From assembly GCF_023806465.1 (NCBI RefSeq), contig NZ_JAMSLS010000002.1, forward strand, positions 682,001-746,000: a stretch of DNA of 64,000 bases, written 5' to 3'. Positions 12,388 to 15,115 of this stretch are shown here, one piece after another; the stretch's first letter is position 1, and the number at the start of each line of letters is the position of its first letter. This DNA is from Thermomicrobium sp. CFH 73360 (GTDB lineage: Bacteria; Chloroflexota; Chloroflexia; Thermomicrobiales; Thermomicrobiaceae). The notes below the pieces were generated by a model. It made no database searches and was not told the origin of the DNA. It saw only the letters and a program-made list of their open reading frames with translations. Made by a program: the position numbers and the translations under genes.

Positions 12388-12607
12388 AGCGACACCCCCT
12401 GCCGAAGACGAGGTCGTCGGTTGACGCGTGAAGGAGATTTTAGTACTGTGGTTCTGGTTCATCAATCAGAGGAGTTGATGACAACAAGCGCCGAGTGCTG
12501 AAAGCCCCTATTGTCGTCCAGTGCGGCAGGGTTGGGACTGCGCCATCGGAGCGACGAGGCAACTCAGCGAGCTGCACCTCTCCGTCCGAAATCTCGAAAC
12601 GTCGCTC

Positions 12608-12635
12608 TTGCCACCGTCGGCGACAGCCGTATACT
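12608..12635 (+). promoter_or_regulatory. Sigma-70-type promoter of the serA leader transcript
   Basis: TTGCCA (12608-12613), 16-nt spacer, TATACT (12630-12635). Predicted start of transcription is near 12642. This gives a leader of about 260 nt before serA, long enough to hold the upstream ORF and the pairing segments described separately. Confidence 0.65.
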
Positions 12636-12696
12636 ACAGTGAGTGTATGTGGGCGGAAACGCGCCGAGACCCGAATTGAGGGAGGTAGTGGCAACA

Positions 12697-12936
12697 ATGG
12701 ACCAATACACCACCACGCGAGCCGGGCACGTTGTCACCTTCTGCACCGCGGCGGTGGGAGTCGGTTCTGGTTCCGGTTCGGGTAGCGGTCGCGGCTCCAG
12801 TAGTCCCTCCGGTTCCGGTCGTCCCGGATCCAGTTCAGCTGGGTGGGGAACGACCGTCACGTATCCGTCGAACGTTCTGAGATGTGAACCGGAGGGGAAC
12901 AATGGAACGGCTCATACGACTCGCTCTCGATCTTGA
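12697..12936 (+). CDS. Candidate serine-sensing leader peptide (upstream ORF of serA)
   Basis: A 79-residue ORF starting ATG at 12697 with GGGAGG 11 nt upstream, ending at TGA 12934-12936, 35 nt inside the serA coding region in another frame. Codons 24-47 contain 12 Ser and 8 Gly codons out of 24. All six Ser codons (TCT, TCC, TCG, AGC, AGT, TCA) occur in this run, the first four Ser codons each being different. It has no domain and its C-terminal half is not conserved-looking. The position directly between a promoter and a serine-biosynthesis gene, and the codon content, match what is known of amino-acid-responsive leader peptides. That it is translated is inference. Confidence 0.6.
   Translation: MDQYTTTRAGHVVTFCTAAVGVGSGSGSGSGRGSSSPSGSGRPGSSSAGWGTTVTYPSNVLRCEPEGNNGTAHTTRSRS
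12804..12897 (+). promoter_or_regulatory. Anti-Shine-Dalgarno/Shine-Dalgarno pairing controlling serA start
   Basis: CCCTCCGGTTC (12805-12815) inside the Ser codon run is perfectly complementary over 11 nt to GAACCGGAGGG (12886-12896), which contains the serA ribosome binding site; one further G-U pair (12804/12897) extends it. A competing stem CTGGTTCCGG (12767-12776) with CCGGATCCAG (12824-12833), ten positions with one mismatch, flanks the same anti-SD segment. No T run follows either stem, so a translational rather than a terminator-based switch is suggested. A ribosome stalled on the Ser codons would cover the anti-SD and free serA. Confidence 0.6.
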
Positions 12937-15115
12937 TGGTGTCCTCACCGAGCATCCGGCGCCGCTCGCCCAGGCGGCCAACCGGGCACTCGGGATGCAG
13001 CTTCCAGATCACGCATTTGTGGATTCGCACGGCTGCAACGTCCCTGAGGCTGTACGGCTTTGGGTCTACGGTCCAGGTGGCCCCGCAGCGTTGCTTGATC
13101 CAGCACCAAATGCGCCGCAGCTTTTGCGGCAGCTCTTGCAGGTGCTGGGAAACGACCGCGTGACCATCATTACAGCACGGCCGGATCGCTCACAGGCCAC
13201 GACCGAAGAGTGGCTACAGCGTCATGGTTTTCCGCCATGCCGGATTGTCTTCACTGAGGACAAAGTCGCAGCCGCCCGCGAACTCGGCGTGACGCACGCG
13301 ATTGAGGATAGCCTGCGTCACGCGACGCGATACGCGGAGGCTGGTATCACCTGCTTTCTCCTCACGAGTGAGCCCGCCCCAGCTGGAGAATCGCCGTTTG
13401 TGGTGCGTGTTCCCGATCTCACCGCTGCAGTCCAGGCGATCCTCCGCCTTGCGGGTGCATCGTTGCCGGTCGTGTCCGGAGACGGAACACTTCCGCGGCG
13501 ACGGCGCATTGTAGTGAGCGATGTGATTGATCAACGGGCGCGCGAGCGGCTAGCCGCCGAGGCTGATGTGATCGAAGTGGACGGTCGGAACAAAGAAGCG
13601 CTGTACGCTGCTTTACGCGATGCCGACGCGTTGATCGTCCGCTCTGAAACCCAGGTGACACGTGAACTCCTGGCCCATGCGCCACGGCTACGAGTCGTTG
13701 CTCGGGCTGGTACCGGCGTCGACAACATCGATCTCCAGGCAGCGACTGAAGCGGGAATCTTGGTGCTCAATGCCCCGGGGGCGAATGCAGTATCGGCTGG
13801 GGAACATACCATCGCGCTTATCTTGGCCATCTCGCGGTGCCTGATCGAGGCCAATGCCACCACACACGCAGGTCGCTGGGAGCGGAAACGGTTCCGGCCG
13901 TTCGACTTAAAGGGGAAGACGGTCGGTATTGTCGGCCTCGGACGGGTCGGCTCCGTCGTTGCGCAACGACTGCGCGCCTTCGAGGTGCGGCTGCTCGGCT
14001 ATGACCCGTACGTCACCCGAGAGCGCTTTGCGCAGCTCGGCGTTGAGCCGGTGGACTACGAGACGCTGCTTGAACACAGTGATATCGTCACCTTTCACGT
14101 ACCGGCAACGCCCGAGACACGCCATATGCTGGATGCGCGAGCGATCGCACGCCTGAAGCGAGGGGTCATTGTCATCAACTGCGCCCGTGGTGAGGTCGTC
14201 GACGTTCATGCTTTGGCTGAAGCGCTCAAGAGCGGCCACGTGGCGGCGGCCGGTGTGGATGTGTTCCCAGAGGAACCGGCGCACGAAAGTCCTCTTTTCG
14301 GTCTGCCAAATGTCGTCGTCACGCCACATATTGGCGGCTCAAGCCGTGAGGCACTCCAGGCCGTAGGGGAAATCATTGCCACAACGACGCTCGCGGCGCT
14401 GCGCGGTGAGATTGTGCCGAATGCCGTGAACTTGCCAGCTGCATCGCTCCACGCGCCCGAACTTCTCCGACTGACCCAAGTCGCAGAAGCCGCTGGACAC
14501 TTGATTGCCGTCTTGCAACCGTCGCGACCTTCAACATTCGAGGTGACGGTTCATGGCCAGGTGGCACCGGATATCGCCGAGCACGTGACTGCTGTCGCGC
14601 TGGCGTCAGCGCTCCGTCGCTGGACAGTGCGCCGTGTCACGCCAGTCAATGCGCGACTCGTGGCGCAGGAGCTCCACCTCTTTGTCGACGTGCGGTTCGA
14701 TACGGGAGCCTCCACGGTGCCAGAGTTCAATTTTGAGGTGGACGGCGATCCGCCACACCATGTGATGGTGCGTTGGGATCACCGGACAGCCGGCATCATG
14801 GAGGTTGATCGCTTCTCGCTCGAACGGCCGCTCGCCGGCCACATGCTCATCACGCACCACCGAGATCGACCGGGGATTATTGGCCGCATCGGGACGATTC
14901 TTGGACGGTATGACGTGAACATTGCAGGAATGCAGGTTGGCCGGCGTCAGCGAGGCGGTGAAGCGATCATGGTGCTGAATGTTGATGACCCGATCCCTGA
15001 GGCCGCGCTGAACGAGATCCTGCAGATACCGGACGTCTGGACTGCGTATGTCGTGTCGCTGCCGGAGCCGGTCGAACCGCCTGTCATCACGCCGGCTGTT
15101 CCAGTTGATCGCTGA
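12902..15115 (+). CDS. serA: HAD-like phosphatase/nucleotidase domain fused to D-3-phosphoglycerate dehydrogenase
   Basis: 737 residues from the ATG at 12902, four nt after GGAGGGG; an in-frame GTG at 12884 would lie before that site. Residues 1-190 form a HAD domain of the NT5C-like kind: DLDGV (Asp10, Asp12), TARP (Thr91), a motif III Lys near 121 and EDS near 135-137. Residues about 201-737 are a full long-form phosphoglycerate dehydrogenase. It has the catalytic Arg in NCARGEVVD, the NAD fold VGIVGLGRVGS, PEEPA with the Glu, and the His in TPHIGGSSREA, then an intervening domain and a C-terminal ACT domain (DRPGIIGRIGTILGRYDVNIAGM) for serine feedback. It makes 3-phosphohydroxypyruvate, the first step of serine synthesis. 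The HAD part may be an accessory phosphatase; its substrate is unknown. Confidence 0.9.
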   Translation: MERLIRLALDLDGVLTEHPAPLAQAANRALGMQLPDHAFVDSHGCNVPEAVRLWVYGPGGPAALLDPAPNAPQLLRQLLQVLGNDRVTIITARPDRSQATTEEWLQRHGFPPCRIVFTEDKVAAARELGVTHAIEDSLRHATRYAEAGITCFLLTSEPAPAGESPFVVRVPDLTAAVQAILRLAGASLPVVSGDGTLPRRRRIVVSDVIDQRARERLAAEADVIEVDGRNKEALYAALRDADALIVRSETQVTRELLAHAPRLRVVARAGTGVDNIDLQAATEAGILVLNAPGANAVSAGEHTIALILAISRCLIEANATTHAGRWERKRFRPFDLKGKTVGIVGLGRVGSVVAQRLRAFEVRLLGYDPYVTRERFAQLGVEPVDYETLLEHSDIVTFHVPATPETRHMLDARAIARLKRGVIVINCARGEVVDVHALAEALKSGHVAAAGVDVFPEEPAHESPLFGLPNVVVTPHIGGSSREALQAVGEIIATTTLAALRGEIVPNAVNLPAASLHAPELLRLTQVAEAAGHLIAVLQPSRPSTFEVTVHGQVAPDIAEHVTAVALASALRRWTVRRVTPVNARLVAQELHLFVDVRFDTGASTVPEFNFEVDGDPPHHVMVRWDHRTAGIMEVDRFSLERPLAGHMLITHHRDRPGIIGRIGTILGRYDVNIAGMQVGRRQRGGEAIMVLNVDDPIPEAALNEILQIPDVWTAYVVSLPEPVEPPVITPAVPVDR

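Follow-up and report, generated by a model that had tools for sequence, protein, structure and literature searches.

Surveys of amino-acid attenuators cover Trp, Leu/Ile/Val, Cys and others, and in the transcription attenuators of trp, ilv and his a leader rich in the regulated amino acid works together with a terminator (PMC1262725, PMC10272879). Leaders for Cys without terminators were predicted earlier (PMC1262725), and polycysteine leaderless uORFs have been described in mycobacteria (Canestrari et al. 2020, doi 10.1111/mmi.14498, as summarised in PMC9031893 and PMC9094748); in these summaries, a short ORF with a stretch of codons for the product amino acid stands before its biosynthetic gene, and the cysteine supply sets the speed of elongation with no obvious terminator. 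A leader-stalled ribosome frees a paired ribosome-binding site in ermB/ermC and cat (PMC8274638) and in toiL-topAI (PMC12121999), where the stall is caused by an antibiotic. As regards serine itself, starvation in Bacillus subtilis raises ribosome density at UCN codons, and slowed translation of the Ser codons within the repressor gene sinR signals the lack of serine (PMC3862929), while in alpha-proteobacteria the serC RNA motif (RF00517) is a hairpin predicted to hide the ribosome-binding site before serC-serA, for which its authors propose a protein sensor (PMC1273637).

Here we describe a serine-rich leader ORF ahead of serA in Thermomicrobium sp. CFH 73360, a member of the family Thermomicrobiaceae in the phylum Chloroflexota, within a window of 64,000 nucleotides to which all coordinates refer unless another locus is named. 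An earlier note on this DNA had proposed a translational attenuator in which leader codons pair with the serA Shine-Dalgarno (SD) sequence. The leader is a real, family-wide feature, with a stem that is weak in some genomes, and serA is probably controlled by a translational attenuator that responds to serine starvation.

The serA locus and its leader ORF

The serA gene (12902..15115, forward strand, ATG at 12902) encodes a phosphoglycerate dehydrogenase (TIGR01327, 521.5 bits, cut-off 454) with the Pfam domains 2-Hacid_dh, 2-Hacid_dh_C and ACT, fused to an N-terminal HAD-like domain of about 200 aa. This extra domain (12902-13500) carries the motif DLDGVLTEHP, is HAD-like by motif only and gave no Pfam match above the cut-off. 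When 131 genomes of the class were searched, the fused form was confined to the same order, where 34 genomes carried it. It was found in 19 of the 21 Thermomicrobiaceae genomes searched (six genera), and these 19 form our comparison set; close relatives of the window's genome include HRbin28, HRbin27 and an uncultured Thermomicrobium, with Thermalbibacter next. Upstream of the leader lies a promoter-like site on the forward strand (TTGCCA-16-TATACT, 12608..12635) with 10 of 12 consensus matches, as compared with 0.1 such sites expected in shuffles, and the leader RNA is expected to start near 12641. Each of the 19 family genomes has a TATACT or TATCAT box, read by eye, upstream of the leader.

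The leader ORF (12697..12936, forward strand) runs from ATG 12697 to the TGA at 12934-12936 and encodes 79 aa, 15 of them Ser, behind an SD sequence, GGAGGT (12681..12686, forward strand), that we read from the sequence. An early Gly-Ser repeat with four Ser codons (S24, S26, S28 and S30; 12766..12786, forward strand) is followed by three consecutive Ser codons, TCC AGT AGT (12796..12804, forward strand). The ORF is not confined to the region upstream of serA: it overlaps the serA start out of frame and stops 35 nt inside the gene, so that ribosomes reading the leader also pass over the serA start. A serine-rich leader was present ahead of the fused serA in all 19 genomes (11-18 Ser, 59-79 aa), always in the same +2 frame, always with a TGA stop and always reaching 26-41 nt into serA. 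In every genus the chosen leader start has an SD-like site ahead of it, a weaker one in g2 and g5, and the TGA arises where the conserved LDLDG motif of serA encodes Leu-Asp.

The peptides diverge between genera (GSGSGSGRGSSSPSGS; SSSSGRGASSPSGSS; WWSSSSSRGSSSPSSSSS; SSSMCRSRTSSMSSS) with their Ser richness kept, Ser making up 17-26% of the leaders versus 3.8% of serA across the 19 genomes. In the leader frame 251 of 1019 codons were Ser codons (172 TCN and 79 AGY), with zero stops, while the other two frames held 91 of 1019 and 76 of 1000, with 44 and 28 stops, respectively. Since both boxes are enriched, in frame only, and lie more than one point mutation apart, selection appears to act on serine and not on one nucleotide motif. 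The pN/pS of the leader (0.73, against 1.23 and 0.89 in the other frames) is weak support for selection at the peptide level. The leader Ser codons of the 19 genomes (271 in total) were distributed as TCC 74, AGT 54, TCG 50, TCA 38, TCT 29 and AGC 26, unlike those of serA, most of which are AGC or TCG (149 and 101 of 363).

Comparison of the leader with Pfam and NCBIfam profiles returned nothing meaningful. By eye, we recognised no comparable leader at 14 HAD-serA loci of the order's other families or in 90 further Chloroflexota serA upstream regions, a sample biased to high-scoring serA and one in which poor sequence match could conceal distant leaders. Ser-rich stretches outside the family, reaching 10 Ser in 25 codons, resemble shifted frames of the neighbouring coding sequence.

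Pairing of leader codons with the serA SD

Positions 12805-12815 (CCCTCCGGTTC) are the exact reverse complement of 12886-12896 (GAACCGGAGGG), and a U12804-G12897 wobble lengthens the stem to 12 pairs. The anti-SD arm (UCCCUCCGGUUC, 12804..12815, forward strand) is made of the codons for Pro-Ser-Gly-Ser, the last in part, read in the leader frame opened by ATG 12697; the sequestered arm (GAACCGGAGGGG, 12886..12897, forward strand) holds the serA SD, GGAGGG. None of 60 leaders recoded synonymously with codons drawn from serA reached the observed helix score (30.5, as compared with a mean of 17.2) or the observed cost of opening the SD, and none of 60 leaders with shuffled codon order reached that helix score. 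Sequence reading, folding and these controls thus bear out what the earlier note had put forward: a Ser-rich ORF ahead of serA, an exact 11-nt complementarity that includes the serA SD, and sequestration of that SD by leader codons. A second complement of the serA SD, of 10 bp, lies at 12771-12780 within the early Gly-Ser repeat; it may serve as a reserve lock or be left over from expansion of the repeat.

The stem is present in the minimum free energy fold of 12642-12910, a region whose overall folding z-score is only -1.8. Thermomicrobium is a thermophile, and the probabilities of the twelve pairs spanned 0.78-1.00, 0.67-1.00 and 0.62-1.00 at 37, 60 and 70 °C, respectively, with the core pairs above 0.9 at all three temperatures. 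The folding prediction of the earlier note held for the unmasked RNA; when 12766-12830 was masked, the SD found other partners at 37 °C. Its candidate for the alternative fold, a competing stem between 12767-12776 and 12824-12833, contains one mismatch and had a probability of 0.00 in every state tested, and we discarded it.

Within the window's genus (g1), each of the six genomes that have the locus carries the 12-bp SD helix unchanged. Genome G009 has an 11-bp helix and g3 a 9-bp helix, while in g5 the site is shifted, G014 and G019 having 10 bp, G020 8 bp and G010 a bulged helix. The helix exceeded synonymous recoding in g1 (0-1 of 60 versions reaching the observed score), G009 (0/60), g3 (0-2/60), G014 (4/60) and G019 (2/60); in G011 the SD-opening cost exceeded the recoded control (1/60) and the helix score did not. 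In g2 the helix has at most 8 bp, and neither there nor in G010 and G020 was it above recoding (60 versions each). The SD is therefore hidden by pairing with the leader in the window and in most genera, and weakly so in g2, G010 and G020. The earlier note had asked whether relatives might keep the Ser codons and lose the complementarity: two of the three g2 genomes have indeed lost it at the homologous site, while most genera retain it. As for the compensatory changes that it had suggested looking for, two pairs are changed on both sides in G009 relative to g1 (G-C to A-U and U-A to C-G), but covariation on the seven distinct helix haplotypes of g1-g4, in a trimmed alignment made by hand, was not significant (two doubly changed pairs; 204 of 500 shuffles). 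The covariation measures of these seven helices do exceed those of slid versions.

Ribosome position and the control of serA

We calculated the cost of opening the SD by folding the RNA ahead of the ribosome alone, the ribosome's front edge being assumed to lie 12 nt downstream of the first base in the A site. With the A site on the early Ser codons (12766-12786), the SD was still shut and required about 17-18 kcal/mol to open. The modelled cost fell from 15 kcal/mol, when Gly33 occupied the A site, to 7 at Ser34 and 4 at Ser35, within the three consecutive Ser codons, in agreement with the earlier suggestion that a ribosome stalled on the neighbouring AGT/TCC codons (here 12796-12804) would mask the anti-SD. 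It likewise fell at or next to Ser codons in G018 of g3 (16 to 1 kcal/mol), G019 (12 to 3), G011 (11 to 4), G014 (13 to 7) and G009 (8 to 5), and was nearly flat in g2, G010 and G020. When the upstream RNA was also allowed to fold, the first four bases of the SD were 0.6-0.9 unpaired at 37 °C with the A site at 12799-12808; at 65 °C the SD was less unpaired, except with the A site at 12808.

Because the first four Ser codons of the window precede the opening point, as do the early ones of g1 in general and several in g3, a stall there would leave serA shut, which in this model is a real weakness of a one-ribosome picture. In a simulation of ribosome traffic, whose rates were assumed and whose figures are model output, slow Ser codons raised SD exposure 3- to 10-fold in 8 of 11 genomes at a low initiation rate (for instance 0.09 to 0.64 in G000, 0.11 to 0.77 in G019 and 0.10 to 0.71 in G007). 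Slow Thr or Ala codons mostly gave a smaller rise than slow Ser, and G005, G010 and G015 showed little or no Ser-specific response. The simulation suggests that the later Ser codons would suffice to expose the SD in most cases.

We propose that the promoter at about 12608-12635 would yield an mRNA with the Ser-rich leader as its first ORF and that, by default, leader codons 12804-12815 would base-pair with the SD of serA and silence the gene. If a ribosome stalled at the Ser codons 12796-12804, or at later ones, it would cover the anti-SD or have melted it, leaving the SD free for as long as it stays. With ample serine, fast ribosomes would traverse the SD and the serA start and terminate 35 nt inside serA, and the stem would re-form behind them. 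The leader would thus be translated, a shortage of charged Ser-tRNA would stall ribosomes on it, and serA expression would rise in response. As the earlier note had expected of an attenuator working without a terminator, the region 12450-13100 contained no terminator-like site. We favour serine attenuation because the gene concerned makes serine, because the helix exceeds synonymous recoding in most genera and because the Ser-rich leader and its frame are kept in all 19 family genomes; attenuators also appear to be in use in this family, since ilvB there has a branched-chain-rich leader. It is conceivable, if rather doubtful, that the switch has two layers, the sensor codons themselves forming the SD-blocking arm while running ribosomes occlude the serA start and held ones open it. 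If true, this would be an amino-acid attenuator that dispenses with a terminator, a separate anti-SD element and intergenic space.

The overlap with the serA start in all 19 genomes would also fit translational coupling, in which the leader merely opens the SD stem and feeds ribosomes to serA by termination and reinitiation, with no sensing of serine, and leader genes near a start can increase downstream translation (PMC4833913). We consider this unlikely: it leaves unexplained a Ser content of 17-26%, drawn from both codon boxes, beside a serine gene in 19 of 19 genomes, and the leader stops 26-41 nt inside serA, as compared with the spacing of 10-11 nt upstream described for reinitiation (PMC4833913). 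Equally improbable, in our judgement, is a control by occlusion in which the stem is secondary: ribosomes on the leader would block the serA SD and start when serine is replete, and Ser shortage would hold them upstream. The out-of-frame overlap retained in all 19 genomes agrees with this, and such control would also work where stems are weak (g2, G010 and G020). Against it, a stall at the early Ser codons is predicted to leave the SD paired in most genomes, the stems are above the synonymous control in most genera, and the overlap could be a side effect of serA coding, the TGA being supplied by its conserved Leu-Asp codons. That the Ser run is itself a by-product of selection for the stem, the RNA being a constitutive or temperature-dependent damper of translation, is very improbable: UCC is used more than any other Ser codon in the leaders (74 of 271) and pairs with the GGA of the SD, but AGY and TCA/TCG/TCT codons form the majority, the enrichment is frame-specific, and the stem still forms at 70 °C, which speaks against a thermometer.

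Relation to known regulatory leaders

Two other amino-acid loci also carry leader elements. In the same genome, the leader ORF of ilvB (L182, about 1182-1335) is branched-chain-rich (...LSLVVVILILTGLPLVGG) and is followed by a strong hairpin (ATCGCGAGCCTCCC/GGGAGGCTCGCGAT) that lacks a T run; leader and hairpin together are a probable attenuator. At the ilvB loci L166-L183 of the family, the branched-chain-rich leader ends about 160-200 nt before the profile start. A T-box leader (RF00230, 99.4 bits) lies 5' of trpE in this genome (L201, 3115-3399, reverse strand), so that the RNA sensor of Trp synthesis is of another type than that of serA. At serA, an Rfam scan gave no match at E ≤ 1, including T-box, the serC motif RF00517 and riboswitches, although the same scan detects the T-box at trpE.

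If the serine attenuator is real, serine gains an attenuator of its own, in a phylum with few descriptions of such control. The design would be compact, since UCC and AGU Ser codons naturally complement an SD-type sequence and a serine sensor can thus double as a lock on the ribosome-binding site. In the open-access literature searched, we found no serine leader of this type.

Among the known systems, the trp, ilv and his attenuators share with serA a leader rich in the regulated amino acid but need a terminator, and none is present at serA. The serC motif resembles the serA stem in hiding a ribosome-binding site, but it has no leader peptide. As proposed for serA, sinR uses slowed translation of Ser codons as the signal, but its sensor codons have neither leader nor SD stem. 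In ermB/ermC, cat and toiL-topAI the release of a paired ribosome-binding site by a stalled ribosome matches our proposal, with lack of aminoacyl-tRNA taking the place of the antibiotic. The mycobacterial Cys uORFs, as far as the summaries describe them, share with the serA leader the codon run before a gene for synthesis of the same amino acid and, as proposed here, elongation set by its supply without a terminator; they differ in sensing cysteine, in their leaderless start and in belonging to Actinobacteria, whereas the serA leader has serine codons, is SD-led, spans 59-79 codons and overlaps its gene. Unlike in those uORFs, the proposed sensor codons of the serA leader double as the anti-SD. 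As far as the literature searched shows, control of this kind is already known from the mycobacterial Cys uORFs and from ermC and cat, and what is new at serA is the serine signal, the phylum and an anti-SD built from the sensor codons.
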